DNA of 64,000 nt. Source: Bacteroidia bacterium (GTDB lineage: Bacteria; Bacteroidota; Bacteroidia; UKL13-3). A program made the position numbers and the translations under genes. The notes under the pieces are model-generated. The model was not told the origin of the DNA. It made no database searches and worked only from the letters and a program-made list of their open reading frames with translations. The number at the start of each line of letters is the position of its first letter. The first letter of the stretch is position 1. Of this stretch, positions 3,393-8,260 are shown in pieces. The stretch is from assembly GCA_025454875.1 (NCBI GenBank), contig JALONP010000002.1, positions 1 through 64,000 of the forward strand, in the 5' to 3' direction.

Positions 3393-3821
3393 TTACTTCT
3401 TCAACTTCAATAAAGATTTTGTGTAATCGATTACGGCCTTATATTTCATTAAGAAGTCGCTTCCCAAAACGCCATCAATAGACTCTACACCAAGTAGGTT
3501 GTATGTTTGGTTCACGTGTGATAGAGGCAATACCGCTACTTTAAACTGCTTGATTTTAAATTTACCACTTTGCCAATGCGCAAGTGTTGCAATTTTGGTT
3601 TCCATTTCAGCTACTCCCAATCCCACTGATTTGCTTTCGTTTGTCTTTACTTTGTTAGGTTCAATCAACCGTAATATTCGGTTATCATCCATCACCGTTT
3701 TACTTGCTCCAGTGTCAAGCAATAAACGGCAATTCGCATTATTGATGGTAAAATTCACGAACACATGAAAATTCTTCTTTTCAAGTTCAACGATATCGAG
3801 TTTTATTTTATGGATGCTCAT
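3393..3821 (-). CDS. Retropepsin-like aspartyl protease family protein
   Basis: A 142-residue single-domain protein of clan AA. The catalytic motif LLLDTGAS lies at residues 33-40 (Asp36), and the later GVLGSDFL segment is the usual hydrophobic-hydrophobic-Gly element of the fold. No signal peptide is visible, so it is probably cytoplasmic. Retropepsin-type proteins act as homodimers, each subunit giving one Asp. The substrate is unknown. The gene sits downstream of mdh but a terminator (3833-3860) separates them. Confidence 0.8.
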   Translation of the reverse strand: MSIHKIKLDIVELEKKNFHVFVNFTINNANCRLLLDTGASKTVMDDNRILRLIEPNKVKTNESKSVGLGVAEMETKIATLAHWQSGKFKIKQFKVAVLPLSHVNQTYNLLGVESIDGVLGSDFLMKYKAVIDYTKSLLKLKK

Positions 3822-3832
3822 TTTTAAACTAA

Positions 3833-3860
3833 AAAGGGCATCTCTTTCGAAATGCCCTTT
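3833..3860 (-). terminator. Rho-independent terminator after mdh
   Basis: A perfect 9-bp stem (AAAGGGCAT / ATGCCCTTT) with a 10-base loop, followed on the reverse strand by a T-rich run. It lies just past the mdh stop codon. Confidence 0.85.
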
Positions 3861-3877
3861 GCGAATATTTTATCAAA

Positions 3878-4819
3878 TTACAATGCGCCAATTTCTTTAA
3901 GAACATTGTTCATATTACGAACTGCATCTGCACTTTTGTTGAATAGGTCTTGCTCTTCGCTGTTTAGTTTGTAATCGATGATGGTTTCCCAACCATTTTT
4001 ACCAATTGTTACTGGCACACCTAAGCAAATATCTTTTTGTCCGTACTCGCCATCTAAGCTTACGCAGCAGGGCATCACACGCTTTTGGTCACGTACAATG
4101 CTTTCAACCAACAAAGCACTAGCAGCACCTGGAGCATACCATGCTGATGTACCCAATAGTTTGGTAAGAGTAGCTCCACCAACCATAGTTGCATCACTAA
4201 TTTCTTTTAATTTATCAGCAGATAATTGAGCCGAAACAGGAACGCCATTTAACGTTGCCAAACGCGTTAATGGAATCATAGTGGTATCTCCATGTCCGCC
4301 AATTACAGTTCCTTGAATATCAGCAGTAGGTTGGTTTAACGCCAATCCTAAATATCCTTTAAAACGTGCACTATCTAATAAACCTCCCATACCTATGATG
4401 CGGTTCTTAGGCAGGCCACTTGCTTTTAATGCAAGGTATGTCATGGTATCCATTGGGTTCGACACTACCACGATAATTGCGTTTGGCGAATGCTTTAATA
4501 CATTTTCAGTAACTGATTTAACAATATTGGCGTTGGTTCCAATCAGTTCTTCACGAGTCATGCCCGGCTTACGTGGGATACCCGAAGTAATTACGACCAC
4601 ATCTGAGTTTGCTGTTTTGCTGTAATCATTGGTTGTACCACTAATGCGAGTTTTCATTCCCAACAATGAAGTGGTTTGGTAAATATCCAACGCTTTGCCC
4701 TCAGCAAAACCTTCTTTTACGTCTAATAATACTACTTCGTCTGCCAACTCACGGTAGGCAATAACATCAGCCGTAGTTGCTCCTACTGCTCCTGCTCCAA
4801 TTACTGATACTTTAGTCAT
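3878..4819 (-). CDS. mdh: Malate dehydrogenase (NAD, LDH-like type)
   Basis: A 313-residue enzyme that interconverts malate and oxaloacetate with NAD in the citric acid cycle. The Rossmann motif GAGAVG is at 8-13 with the NAD-selecting Asp33. Substrate arginines lie in RKPGMTR (Arg83, Arg89). Asn121, Asp149, Arg152 and the catalytic His176 (GGHGD) are all present. The length is normal for the LDH-like bacterial malate dehydrogenases. It is transcribed alone: a -7-like box lies upstream at 4847-4854 and a terminator follows. Its promoter region directly abuts the repeat flank of the S23 gene at 4940. Confidence 0.97.
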   Translation of the reverse strand: MTKVSVIGAGAVGATTADVIAYRELADEVVLLDVKEGFAEGKALDIYQTTSLLGMKTRISGTTNDYSKTANSDVVVITSGIPRKPGMTREELIGTNANIVKSVTENVLKHSPNAIIVVVSNPMDTMTYLALKASGLPKNRIIGMGGLLDSARFKGYLGLALNQPTADIQGTVIGGHGDTTMIPLTRLATLNGVPVSAQLSADKLKEISDATMVGGATLTKLLGTSAWYAPGAASALLVESIVRDQKRVMPCCVSLDGEYGQKDICLGVPVTIGKNGWETIIDYKLNSEEQDLFNKSADAVRNMNNVLKEIGAL

Positions 4820-4846
4820 GTTTTATTGATAGATTAATTTTTGGTG

Positions 4847-4854
4847 CGAAAATA
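4847..4854 (-). promoter_or_regulatory. Probable mdh promoter -7 box
   Basis: The reverse strand reads TATTTTCG, a near match to TAnnTTTG, 27 bases upstream of the mdh ATG. The -33 position falls inside the short tandem repeat at 4871-4937 and reads TTA rather than TTG, so the repeat may have replaced part of the promoter. Confidence 0.4.
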
Positions 4855-4870
4855 ATTTTTTACGTGAGAA

Positions 4871-4937
4871 GTTTAAGATTGTTTAAAAAGTATTTAGGAT
4901 GGTTTAAGTTTATTTAGAACAGTTTAGGATTGTTTGT
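4871..4937 (+). repeat. Short tandem repeat, left flank of S23 gene 1
   Basis: About six degenerate units of 10-11 bp, consensus TTTARGATTG, run head to tail. The same unit appears in the opposite orientation at 5383-5455 on the other side of the S23 family gene, so the gene is bracketed by imperfect inverted repeats. Confidence 0.8.
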
Positions 4938-4939
4938 TT

Positions 4940-5341
4940 CTAGTTGGTTCTTCCTTTGAACTTAGTTCCCTTTATTTCTGTTTTATTGAGGTATAATATA
5001 AGGTTCTCAATTTTTTGTTCTATTGATTTTGCTTTGTTATAAAAATATTCGAATTGATCTTTTGTGATATAATTTCTATCCATTGCTTGATAAAGTTGTG
5101 ATTGAGTTTCTGTAGATGAACCTTGCGAAAATCCTAAAAACTGAACGAATTCCAATCTACTTCCTCTCCCATACCCTTCTACAATATTGTTCATAACCGA
5201 ACCTGAAGCATCATTAATTTGAGCGACTAATTTGTAATCCTTACTCCAAGGTAAAAGTTGTGTCTCCTCAAAAATTTCTTTAGACAATACTCTTGCCAAC
5301 TGCCATGCTTCAATATCTTCAAACCTTTTAAATGTGGCCAT
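4940..5341 (-). CDS. Four-helix bundle protein, S23/23S rRNA intervening-sequence (IVP) family, copy 1
   Basis: A 133-residue, almost all-helical protein with the hallmark N-terminal FEDIEAWQLAR segment (residues 7-17) and NNIVEGYGR in the second helix. The family was first seen in open frames within intervening sequences of spirochaete 23S rRNA genes and shares its fold with the Avd protein of diversity-generating retroelements. Its function is unknown; the fold forms homopentamers in solved members. There is no rRNA gene here. The gene is enclosed by repeats of opposite orientation (4871-4937, 5383-5455) and abuts the scoB stop, which suggests a small mobile or amplifiable unit. Confidence 0.9.
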   Translation of the reverse strand: MATFKRFEDIEAWQLARVLSKEIFEETQLLPWSKDYKLVAQINDASGSVMNNIVEGYGRGSRLEFVQFLGFSQGSSTETQSQLYQAMDRNYITKDQFEYFYNKAKSIEQKIENLILYLNKTEIKGTKFKGRTN

Positions 5342-5382
5342 TAATAAAAAAAAATTTTAAACTACACTTAAGCTACCCTCTA

Positions 5383-5455
5383 TTAAACAATCCCAAACAA
5401 ATTTAACCATCTTAAACTCTCTTCATTAACCAATCTTAAACCAATCCTAAACCCT
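5383..5455 (-). repeat. Short tandem repeat, right flank of S23 gene 1
   Basis: On the reverse strand this reads as repeated TTTAGGATTGG and TTTAAGATTGG units of 10-13 bp. It is the same unit as at 4871-4937 in inverted orientation. It ends two bases from the scoB stop codon. Confidence 0.8.
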
Positions 5456-5457
5456 CT

Positions 5458-6114
5458 CTACCCAACAACCATCTCCCTTACATCATCAGCAATCACAAGT
5501 CGGCCTAAGGTTTTTTCTTTAATATAATCTAGTGAAACGCCCGGAGCATATTCGATACACTTGAACCCTTGCGGTGTAATATCAAAAACACCCAATTCAG
5601 TTACCACTTTCTTCACGCATTTTAAACCCGTAATTGGCAACGAGCATTGGGCTAATAATTTGCTTTCGCCTGCTTTATTTACATGCTGCATAGCAACGAT
5701 AATATTCTTAGCACTTGCAACTAAATCCATTGCACCACCCATGCCCTTTACCATTTTACCTGGTATTTTCCAGTTGGCAATATCTCCATTATCGGCAACC
5801 TCCATGGCTCCCAAAATGGTAAGATCTACTTTACCTGCACGGATCATTCCGAAACTCATTGCTGAATCAAAAAAAGCGGAACCCGCAACCGTGGTAATGG
5901 TTTGCTTTCCTGCATTGATTAAATCTGCATCTATATCCTCTTCTTGTGGAAATGGACCAATCCCCAATAACCCATTTTCGGATTGCAATACCACATTTAC
6001 ACCTTGGGGTATATAATTCGCTACCAAGGTTGGAATTCCAATTCCTAGATTCACATAAAACCCATCTTGCAATTCTTGTGCGATGCGTTTTGCTATTTGA
6101 TTTTTGTCTAACAT
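5458..6114 (-). CDS. scoB: 3-oxoacid (succinyl-CoA:acetoacetate) CoA-transferase, subunit B
   Basis: A 218-residue family I CoA-transferase beta subunit. The SENG motif at 45-48 carries the catalytic Glu46 that forms the enzyme-CoA thioester. GIGIPTLV near residue 24 and the GAMEV and GGAMDLV segments are typical. With subunit A it moves CoA between succinyl-CoA and acetoacetate, for ketone-body use. The frame extends to 6174, but its first 20 residues are translated repeat; the start at 6114 gives the normal N-terminus. Subunit A lies 511 bases upstream, with an S23 gene in between, which is unusual because the two genes are normally adjacent. Confidence 0.95.
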   Translation of the reverse strand: MLDKNQIAKRIAQELQDGFYVNLGIGIPTLVANYIPQGVNVVLQSENGLLGIGPFPQEEDIDADLINAGKQTITTVAGSAFFDSAMSFGMIRAGKVDLTILGAMEVADNGDIANWKIPGKMVKGMGGAMDLVASAKNIIVAMQHVNKAGESKLLAQCSLPITGLKCVKKVVTELGVFDITPQGFKCIEYAPGVSLDYIKEKTLGRLVIADDVREMVVG

Positions 6115-6117
6115 ATT

Positions 6118-6166
6118 AATTTGATGATGAGATAATTTGATGATGAGATGATGAGATAATGATTTC
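6118..6166 (+). repeat. Short tandem repeat, left flank of S23 gene 2
   Basis: Two exact copies of the 16-mer AATTTGATGATGAGAT at 6118-6133 and 6134-6149, followed by a partial unit that runs into the S23 stop codon. The core GATAATTTGA recurs inverted at 6591-6632. Confidence 0.8.
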
Positions 6167-6575
6167 ATCGCCAAAAAACCAATACTTGATTTATAAATGA
6201 TTTTAGACTTAGTGATTTTTTACTGGAAGCTACTATTTTATTAATAGTCTTTTGAATAATCTCCAATTCAGTTAAAAGCTCGGCAGAATCAGGGTAAGAT
6301 GGAGCATGCTTGCATATTAGGAGCCAATAAAATGTTTCGTCTGCCTCCTTTGCTGCAATTTTAAATTTATGAATAAAGTCTGATTTGCTTTCAGCATTTT
6401 GAGCTTCATATGAATTTGCGCCAATAGAAGTTCCCGATTTGAGCAATTGATTAGCAACTACAAATCTCTTTTGCGATTCCAATATCTCAGTAAATTCAAT
6501 AATTTTTAATGAGAAGTTAAATGTCAACTTCATTATCAAATTATCCTCAAATGGTTGTTCAAACTTTCTGTTCAT
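6165..6575 (-). CDS. Four-helix bundle protein, S23/IVP family, copy 2
   Basis: A 136-residue helical protein of the same family as the gene at 4940 but a different subgroup: it has LLKSGTSIGANSYEAQ (about residues 46-61) and a KIAAKEADETFYWL helix, and lacks the FEDIEAWQ start. An internal ATG at 6533 could also serve, and the first 14 codons contain repeat-like sequence. It lies between scoA and scoB in the same orientation, filling the space from the scoA stop to the scoB start almost exactly. Function unknown. It is most simply read as an inserted unit rather than a CoA-transferase subunit. Confidence 0.87.
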   Translation of the reverse strand: MNRKFEQPFEDNLIMKLTFNFSLKIIEFTEILESQKRFVVANQLLKSGTSIGANSYEAQNAESKSDFIHKFKIAAKEADETFYWLLICKHAPSYPDSAELLTELEIIQKTINKIVASSKKSLSLKSFINQVLVFWR

Positions 6576-6590
6576 AATTCAATTTGACAA

Positions 6591-6632
6591 AAATTATCAA
6601 ATAATCACATTTGCTAATTATCAAATTATTGC
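6591..6632 (-). repeat. Short repeat, right flank of S23 gene 2
   Basis: Two AATTATCAAAT units (about 6592-6602 and 6616-6626), the inverse of the GATAATTTGA core on the other side of the S23 gene. The last unit overlaps the scoA stop codon at 6626-6628. Confidence 0.7.
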
Positions 6633-7324
6633 TTCGCAACAGTTCGCTGTTCAATTCGCTTCTCGTAGTCTTTTCCTTCAAATATTCGGTGCACGTATAT
6701 CCCAGGCAAATGAATATGATCAGGGTCTATATCGCCAGCAGGAACCAACTCCTCTACTTCTGCAATGGTAATTTTACCTGCCATGGCCACTAAAGGATTA
6801 AAGTTTCTTGATGTTTTACGAAAAACTAAATTACCTTGGGTATCTCCCTTCCATGCTTTCACAATTGCAAAATCCAACTCAAATGCATATTCAAGTAAAT
6901 ACTCCTTGTTATTAAATAAACGGGTTTCTTTTCCTTGAGCAACTTCGGTTCCAACACCTGCTGGGGTAAAAATTGCTGGCATTCCATATCCTGCTGCAAG
7001 CAAACGGGTGGCTAAGGTTCCTTGTGGTATTAAATCAACTTCCAACTCACCCGAAAGCAATTGACGTTCAAACTCGGCATTCTCGCCTACGTATGAAGCT
7101 ATCATTTTTTTAAGTTGTTTTTGTTGGAGCATTAACCCAATCCCAAAATCATCAACGCCTGCATTGTTGGATACACAGGTTAAATTGTTTACCCCCTTTT
7201 TAACCAATGCTGTGATGCAATTTTCAGGGATTCCACATAACCCAAAACCACCCAATCCAACAGTCATTCCACTTTGAATATCGGCAATGGCAACTTGGGC
7301 ATCTTTTACTACTTTATTAATCAT
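6626..7324 (-). CDS. scoA: 3-oxoacid (succinyl-CoA:acetoacetate) CoA-transferase, subunit A
   Basis: A 232-residue alpha subunit of the family I CoA-transferases. The glycine-rich GLGGFGLCGIPE at residues 23-34 forms the CoA-binding loop, and NNAGVDDFGIG is typical. The start at 7324 is preferred over an upstream frame extension that lacks the family N-terminus. It lies 13 bases after clpS on the same strand. Its partner scoB is displaced downstream by the S23 gene. The last codons overlap the flank repeat of that element. Confidence 0.95.
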   Translation of the reverse strand: MINKVVKDAQVAIADIQSGMTVGLGGFGLCGIPENCITALVKKGVNNLTCVSNNAGVDDFGIGLMLQQKQLKKMIASYVGENAEFERQLLSGELEVDLIPQGTLATRLLAAGYGMPAIFTPAGVGTEVAQGKETRLFNNKEYLLEYAFELDFAIVKAWKGDTQGNLVFRKTSRNFNPLVAMAGKITIAEVEELVPAGDIDPDHIHLPGIYVHRIFEGKDYEKRIEQRTVAKQ

Positions 7325-7337
7325 GCTATGTAATTTT

Positions 7338-7616
7338 CTACTCTCCAATGGTGGCACTTAATCCTTCATCAAGCAACGCTTGACACATGGCCATTAAATC
7401 TTGTTTTGAACCTTGTTTCACGGTACACTTGCCTTTAAAATGAACTAGCAACGCACATTGCTCTGCTTGCAATTCATCGTGTTTGCAAATACGCACAAGA
7501 CAATCAATAACGTGATCGAATGTGTTCACATCATCATTGTATAAAATTAAGGCCGAGCTATGGTCTACACCTTCTAATACTTCTTCTAATAATTCTTCTA
7601 CTAATTGTGCACACAT
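7338..7616 (-). CDS. clpS: ATP-dependent Clp protease adaptor ClpS
   Basis: A 92-residue adaptor that delivers N-degron substrates to ClpAP/ClpCP. The conserved LYNDDVNTFDHVI lies at 25-37; Asn27 and Asp28 line the N-degron pocket. The helix around CALLVHFKGK is also typical. It follows plsY after 5 bases and precedes scoA by 13, so the three are probably co-transcribed. Confidence 0.95.
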   Translation of the reverse strand: MCAQLVEELLEEVLEGVDHSSALILYNDDVNTFDHVIDCLVRICKHDELQAEQCALLVHFKGKCTVKQGSKQDLMAMCQALLDEGLSATIGE

Positions 7617-7621
7617 AACAG

Positions 7622-8260
7622 CTACTTCTCAATAGTTGGTTTTTTATTGAAACTAAACTTGTTTTCGTTACCTGAAATCAGCCTATTGATATTTGCTCTG
7701 TGTGTGTAAACCACAAGCAATCCAATGGCGGTGCAAAAATATAAAAAAACAGGTTCTTGCCAGTTATAAATCAACCCAACGTATAAAGGACTCAATACAG
7801 CAGCAGTCATTGACCCTAAAGAGATGTAACGGGTTGCCCAAACAACCAATACAAATGTAACCATGCAGCTTAGGGCAAGCCAGCCATTCATAGCCATTAC
7901 CATCCCAATCAGGGTTGCAATTCCTTTTCCTCCCTTAAAACGAGCAAATATTGGAAAAATATGACCGATAACGGCCGTAATGCCGAACCCCATTTGCCAC
8001 TGCAACACTGCACTTCCGGTTACCGACTCTGGTAAAAAAACAACCAAACTGGTAGCTGCAAAACCCTTTAAACAATCAATAGCCAATACAGCTAAACCTG
8101 CAGGTTTTCCCAATGTACGAAGTGTATTTGTTGCTCCAGCGTTTCCACTTCCATGTTCTCGCACGTCTACTCCAAAAAATACCTTACCCACCCAAACTGC
8201 CGTTGGGATTGAGCCAAGCAGGTATGCACCAACTATTAAAACTATATGCAATTGTTCCAT
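7622..8260 (-). CDS. plsY: Acyl-phosphate:glycerol-3-phosphate acyltransferase PlsY
   Basis: A 212-residue inner-membrane enzyme making lysophosphatidic acid from acyl phosphate and glycerol-3-phosphate, the first acylation in phospholipid synthesis. The three family motifs are visible: GSIPTAV near 16-22, GSGNAGATNTLR near 37-48 and FKGGKGIAT near 108-116. Hydrophobic segments fit the usual multi-spanning topology. It starts 2 bases after the 1444-residue exported protein gene. Confidence 0.95.
   Translation of the reverse strand: MEQLHIVLIVGAYLLGSIPTAVWVGKVFFGVDVREHGSGNAGATNTLRTLGKPAGLAVLAIDCLKGFAATSLVVFLPESVTGSAVLQWQMGFGITAVIGHIFPIFARFKGGKGIATLIGMVMAMNGWLALSCMVTFVLVVWATRYISLGSMTAAVLSPLYVGLIYNWQEPVFLYFCTAIGLLVVYTHRANINRLISGNENKFSFNKKPTIEK

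Follow-up and report, generated by a model that had tools for sequence, protein, structure and literature searches.

In the 23S rRNA of Coxiella burnetii, the intervening sequence (IVS) is described, in those parts of the report that were available, as a 428-nt unit with complementary ends that carries an S23-family ORF, with tandem GACAGAT heptamers just upstream of the ORF; it is excised by RNase III, has been termed selfish, and has been discussed as a transposition remnant or mobile element (PMC4990558). Heptameric intergenic repeats are over-represented in bacteria and little studied, and the accessible sections of one study describe G-rich intergenic arrays of GGGAATC in Xanthomonas (two strains have 70 and 75 convergent pairs) and of GGGGA[T/C]T in Nostoc (PMC4692102). 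In Beggiatoaceae, TAACTGA heptamers form arrays immediately ahead of start codons, within operons as well, and the portion of that paper at hand considers both mobility and a repeat-binding protein (PMC4679880). Homology between Avd, a protein of diversity-generating retroelements, and PF05635 has likewise been noted, as far as the available text goes (PMC10053308). We found no description of S23 units outside rRNA in the open-licence PMC literature searched, and the literature found gave no function for the S23 ('four helix bundle') protein. In REP/RAYT systems, a protein lineage is matched to its own short repeats, and the RAYTs are Y1 transposases.

The window analysed here, a stretch of 64,000 nucleotides from a Bacteroidia bacterium, contains two S23 genes within a run of co-directional genes on the minus strand, in the order scoA, element B, scoB, element A, mdh. 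The host genes encode CoA transferase subunit A (scoA, 6626..7357, by profile scan), CoA transferase subunit B (scoB, 5458..6114, its likely start being the ATG at 6114) and a malate/lactate dehydrogenase (mdh, 3878..4819, by profile scan). Element A (arms plus gene, 4870..5452) separates scoB from mdh and is co-directional with both; its gene, S23-A (4940..5341), encodes 133 residues and matches PF05635/TIGR02436 (PF05635: E=1.4e-29, 102.8 bits; curated cut-off 33.8). Element B (arms plus gene, 6117..6630) occupies the gap between scoA and scoB, and its 136-residue gene, S23-B (6165..6575), matches the same families (PF05635: E=1.4e-18, 67.5 bits; same cut-off). The two genes are separated by 823 bp and are 18% identical in the family alignment, bearing out the original prediction that they are ~0.8 kb apart and of different subgroups.

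The layout said to be shared, an S23 gene between inverted short repeats, was present in both A and B. The upstream (5') arm of element A (5383..5452) consists of degenerate GTTTAAGATT / GTTTAGGATT units, which recur in inverted copy in the downstream (3') arm (4870..4935); together 5383-5452 and 4870-4935 formed six inverted pairs of 14-17 nt at 82-94% identity. These units are irregular, ~9-14 nt by eye, and their best period of 10 was weak (z 2.4). Element B has an upstream arm of AATTTGATAATT type (6593..6630), and its downstream arm (6117..6160) is an 8-mer array; here, 6117-6152 was inverted relative to 6593-6628 (36 nt, 75%) and 6132-6160 relative to 6601-6629 (29 nt, 76%). The best pair in element B (16 nt, 94%) joined 6131-6146 with 6530-6545, which are the first codons of gene B and lie outside the outer arm. 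When flanks were compared for 52 ORFs of the window, S23-A alone scored at least 28 (score 43), and S23-B, with 27, fell just under this cut-off. The repeats of the two elements had been called unrelated; they do differ in sequence and unit length, irregular in A and 8-mer in B, but the families share period, polarity and layout. Likewise, the claim that the ends touch coding sequence held for the scoB-side end of A, where the 5' arm starts 5 nt beyond the stop codon of scoB, and for both ends of B, one overlapping the scoA stop and the other 2 nt before the scoB ATG, but not for the mdh side of A, which ends ~50 nt from the mdh start.

The predicted structure of S23-A (pLDDT 93.4) matched 2gsc (Z 18.4) and 2rld (Z 17.0). 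It also resembled Avd (8ub7, from a retroelement complex, Z 13.7; 4dwl, Z 13.5), at values close to the Z of 13.0 reached by unrelated helical bundles. Among the 50 matches listed in this fold search, none stood out as a nuclease or polymerase, an absence that we do not treat as evidence. Across 46 S23 sequences, Q41 and E78 were invariant and S48, N52, E55 and F65 nearly so, and the median dN/dS was 0.08 (84 non-independent pairs). The S23 protein is thus under purifying selection.

We surveyed S23 genes drawn from relatives, from 395 genomes sampled within the class and from named genomes in a wide range of phyla, with added loci from Pseudomonadota, Desulfobacterota and cyanobacterial plasmids. 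The sampled loci were mostly the best-scoring among the matches listed rather than random; the counts leave out genes that had short flanks or were identical in sequence, and neighbour genes and control ORFs were defined by simple ORF rules. A score of at least 28 was taken as a pass in the arm test. Matching inverted arms bordered 194 of the 300 S23 genes (165/247 in the main set and 29/53 in the added set), compared with 7/272 mechanical ORFs of at least 100 residues from the same loci (2.6%). In the first set, 75/117 true flank pairs passed, compared with 11/1170 mismatched pairs (0.9%), which rules out chance or composition as the source of the arms. A direct arm orientation was also rejected, as only 20/117 pairs passed at the equal threshold. 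S23 genes were found in 54/58 genomes of the group, the window's genome included, and one other genome carries three co-directional S23 genes within 4 kb (L047; G043:C2:44000-50200). Carriage by phages was discounted, since none of 50,697 phage records matched S23-A at E<=1e-5.

The arms had a characteristic period. Among the 165 arm-bearing units of the main set, lag 7 exceeded a z of 3 in 66%, with its multiples 14 and 21 doing so in 54% and 32%, while lags 8 and 16 did so in 22% and 18% and none of the remaining lags between 4 and 22 in more than 5%. GC skew, read on the coding strand in the orientation of the upstream arm, was positive in 143/165. All five distinct cyanobacterial plasmid loci tested had inverted arms (28 plasmid records matched), with units such as GGGAGTA, GGGAACA and GGGTGTA; tandem GGGAATC was not found in loci L287-L314 and L350-L395. 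Stop codons in all frames were enriched on both strands of the arms (sense 28% vs 14%, antisense 23% vs 6%), and the provision of such stops was dismissed as the purpose of the 7-bp period because the enrichment was not strand-specific.

One could suppose that no special unit exists and that ordinary small operon genes merely stand next to unrelated low-complexity repeats. Period-7/8 arrays do occur without S23, and 106/300 S23 genes failed the arm test. The control rates of 2.6% and 0.9%, set against 65% of S23 genes, together with copies that end with their arms and repeats that switch with the protein (both described below), leave this explanation barely credible. The original prediction would have been refuted by repeats that are common without S23 genes in unrelated contexts, and the data touch this point in part: 464 kb of the window's genome held 9 period-7/8 arrays, compared with 2 in shuffled sequence, and 7/9 had no S23 gene within 400 bp. 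A period-8 ATGTGAAGATGTGAAGG array with, by eye, a mirror-like stretch occupies a short intergenic gap without S23 on contig C25 of this genome (L411:679-704); the two genes on its sides resemble atpA and atpG, and it is possibly a decayed element.

We then compared repeats with S23 lineage. In the 13,275 pairs of loci that had no neighbour genes homologous to each other, arm similarity climbed with S23 identity: at these non-homologous sites, the proportion of arm pairs scoring at least 28 was 1.8% below 25% S23 identity, 17.8% at 50-55%, 33.8% at 60-70% and 66.7% at 70% or above. The mean arm score at an identity of at least 50% was 24.5, compared with a mean of 17.4 and a maximum of 18.7 over 1000 permutations. 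The covariation of S23 clades and flank repeats that had been proposed as a check was hence recovered across non-orthologous sites, beyond every shuffle. This covariation could nevertheless be explained by linkage inside one element alone.

A control for site and genome background came from the genus of Salegentibacter maritimus, in which 14/15 genomes, S. maritimus included, have the upstream flank of a particular locus. Four genomes have a type I S23 gene with GTTTGGT/GTTTATT arms and four a type II gene with TTGTGAG/GTTCTCG arms; the two types are 31-57% identical in local alignments, and both arms switch together with the S23 type. S23 was not detected at this locus in 5 genomes, one of which (L327) had no downstream flank in view. 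The remaining one of the 14 (G735, L320) is chimeric: an upstream arm and a remnant of the N-terminal coding sequence, both of type I, are joined to a type II C-terminal part and downstream arm, a pattern as if two elements had recombined. The prediction that each S23 lineage is matched to its own repeat is upheld insofar as the two co-vary and the arms co-switch; a match in the sense of binding is only inferred.

Repeat types were also compared among relatives of the window elements. The closest relative of S23-A among the 395 genomes (56% identity) lies at a sufB/sufC-like junction and has GTTTCAG-type arms, and the relatives of S23-B at fifteen other scoA/scoB loci have mostly AATTTGA-type arms. 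The double layout of the window, with matching repeat types, is kept in a genome of another family (G110), in the order scoA, B-like unit with AATTTGA arms, scoB, A-like unit with GTTAAGTTTTAAGTT arms, mdh, although these A-like arms scored only 20. Arms matched better within a locus than between orthologous loci in 39/56 loci. This advantage was strong at three shared sites (30/36) and unclear at the other five of the eight (9/20; 3/5, 1/4, 1/4, 2/4 and 2/3).

The units are fitted closely to operon junctions. The median unit length was 489 bp, and in the 137 units between co-directional genes the arms started a median of 2 nt past the upstream stop and ended a median of 8 nt ahead of the downstream start codon. 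Both neighbours were co-directional with S23 for 239/300 genes and both opposite for 9/300, a bias that was weaker in Pseudomonadota (21 vs 5) and absent on the few cyanobacterial plasmid loci (3 vs 2). Co-directional junctions of at most 30 nt were filled by 98/165 arm-bearing units and make up 1.5% of the intergenic bases in 464 kb of the window's genome; this background comes from one genome with simple gene calls, and the comparison is approximate. Selection against insertions elsewhere could play a part here. Individual placements included an S23 gene between two putative type I restriction genes at two loci, with arms in L104 and none seen in L002 (the neighbours resemble hsdS and hsdM), and, on cyanobacterial plasmids, one unit in a type I-D CRISPR operon, with cas6 and cas4 as its neighbours (L364), and one between ribonucleotide reductase subunit genes, opposite in direction to its neighbours (L362).

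Certain junctions recurred, with 15 scoA/scoB, 13 sufB/sufC-like and 8 metH-like loci, the suf and metH names being our assumption from the sequences. The sco and metH-like units were probably inherited in place, because the nearest S23 relative occupied the same site in 14/15 sco and 8/8 metH-like cases. Such retention, the position of the arms a median of 8 nt before a start codon and the dN/dS of 0.08 are what one would expect of a resident regulator, that is, of an inherited module of S23 gene and array in which the protein, by binding its own repeats in the operon transcript, controls how the next gene downstream is translated. MacGregor proposed a role of this kind for the TAACTGA heptamers before start codons, in the part of that work available (PMC4679880). 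We consider this explanation quite unlikely, as the sites are patchy, the host genes very different, and related genomes have the junction without S23. Five of 30 scoB loci, for example, have a bare scoA/scoB junction of 4-21 nt. The units also decay in place: in one genome (G024, locus L120), a 138-nt scoA/scoB junction is mostly taken up by two inverted arms between which no S23 was detected, a visible case of loss that left arms without a gene, and two of the six S23 matches in the window's genome have an in-frame stop.

Some S23 lineages have moved, because copies occur at unrelated sites. In one clade, from Desulfobacterota and other phyla, units that share 80-93% DNA identity occupy different sites, and homology between the copies stops within the arms, only the unit being common. 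Two of these copies (L250 and L258) are 10 kb apart on one contig. In the pairs L066/L074 and L230/L237, homology extends into the neighbours, making these same-site pairs, and L250 and L269 may share a site, having homologous neighbours on both sides. The suggestion of an undescribed class of small elements gains support from such unit copies at unrelated sites, combined with the lack of any description in the literature searched.

The mobile clade is also where a further explanation finds its evidence, namely that S23 units amount to miniature DNA transposons for which resident insertion sequences supply the transposase in trans, the S23 protein being cargo or a minor helper and the repeats following by linkage only. 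Six loci of the clade have an outer terminus, GTAACTACTCAGG, around the arms, and 4/6 are bordered by 8-bp duplications (exact in L269 and L260, 7/8 in L250 and L306), a fifth, L281, having an exact 7-bp duplication; the cross-locus maximum in the control was 6 of 8, and no abutting duplication was found in L277. Relatives of the L260 genome have the same junction without S23, most clearly L336. The genes at this junction are presumably lspA and lgt, and the L260 duplication takes in the downstream start codon. The terminus recurred in 8/9 genomes searched, in some cases as short pairs without S23, several of them with 8-bp duplications. Pairs of GTAACTACTCAGG termini resemble IS66, the ends of which begin GTAAGCG and which makes 8-bp repeats, according to the part of the source available (PMC11946415). 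No transposase was found, however, in ten ORFs scanned near the GTAACTAC termini; the 186 arm-bearing units outside the GTAACTAC clade showed no excess of duplications of at least 7/8 matches (1 vs 2.2 expected); and neither the 7-bp arms nor the purifying selection on S23 is explained by the model itself. We regard movement as passengers as unlikely, though a possibility to be kept in mind. Target-site duplication as a general feature of S23 units was rejected, as two tests gave no enrichment. A side observation was the family of short elements with GTAACTACTCAGG termini and 8-bp duplications (L416-L445, in genomes G415-G421 and G425); G417 and G425 have tens of terminus matches, against 1 and 2 S23 relatives found.

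Taken together, we lean, with moderate confidence, towards the view that A and B are members of one class of compact selfish element of ~490 bp, in which inverted heptamer or octamer arms border a single S23 gene whose Avd-like product recognises its own repeats. Protein and repeat are paired on statistical evidence, and it is by inference that we speak of binding, of processing and of an enzyme that moves the unit. Under this selfish-element reading, the S23 protein, an Avd/IVP-type four-helix bundle, would recognise its own repeat arrays, for which there are no binding data, and such recognition would be what a protein/repeat pair needs in order to spread. Cutting would fall to a host or resident enzyme, because neither a nuclease nor a polymerase is recognised in the unit. 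The paired arms in the transcript would isolate the S23 cistron, like the stem in the 23S rRNA IVS, and the operon would therefore tolerate the unit. This RNA-loop part is only inferred because the test of G-U mismatches went the other way: at 75 loci, arm mismatches leaned to A and C on the coding strand, with 45 G-U-compatible and 100 A-C mismatches, and we abandoned the idea that G-U pairs preserve a stem in the sense RNA. Sense folds of the window elements paired the arms and were otherwise ordinary (z -1.2 for A and -0.6 for B); antisense folds were better (z -2.8 and -2.0). The mismatch bias and the better antisense fold may hint at an antisense intermediate, either single-stranded DNA or cDNA. 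A more speculative version, which we consider improbable, is that the elements target RNA: the Avd relative would assemble on the transcript, at its own heptamer arrays, and the unit would enter other transcripts, at mRNA junctions or in rRNA as an IVS, and return to the chromosome as a copy that an enzyme provided in trans has reverse-transcribed. If true, this would account for units inserting along the direction of transcription, for their choice of operon gaps of ~10 nt, for the cases in rRNA and for the missing duplications in most units, and the elements would then be a source of the heptameric repeats that are so puzzling in many bacteria.

Comparison with known systems separates the window units from several established classes. 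They do not qualify as insertion sequences, as the gene inside each matches PF05635 only and no transposase of their own is present, and the combination of terminal repeats and target duplication that marks insertion sequences and MITEs was met only in one clade elsewhere. Unlike the proteins of REP/RAYT systems, neither S23 gene product matches a Y1 tyrosine transposase. The fold match of S23-A to the Avd protein of diversity-generating retroelements barely exceeds its match to unrelated bundles; the seven window genes scanned (3393-7616) included no reverse transcriptase, and the locus does not meet the definition of such a retroelement. No Rfam family matched 3800-7800 at E<=0.1. The TAACTGA arrays are direct, with a single inverted case, unlike S23 arms, and neither 'S23' nor 'four helix' occurs in the available part of that text (PMC4679880). 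The heptamers of Xanthomonas and Nostoc are G-rich, like the S23 arms of cyanobacterial plasmids; the accessible text makes no link to S23, and 'four helix' is absent from it (PMC4692102). For heptameric intergenic repeats, S23 units offer a source, and the pairing of lineage and array suggests a concrete function for the S23 protein, the recognition of that array. The units differ from the 23S rRNA IVS in lying between protein genes (scoA, scoB and mdh in the window) rather than inside 23S rRNA, and in their spread over many phyla, their lineage-specific arrays and the lack of demonstrated processing. They share with the IVS an S23 ORF bordered by inverted repeats (arm scores of 43 for A and, under the cut-off of 28, 27 for B). 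Judged by this analogy, the operon units are most likely the counterparts of 23S rRNA IVSs in protein operons, and the pairing of protein and repeat joins the rRNA intervening sequences to a larger population there.
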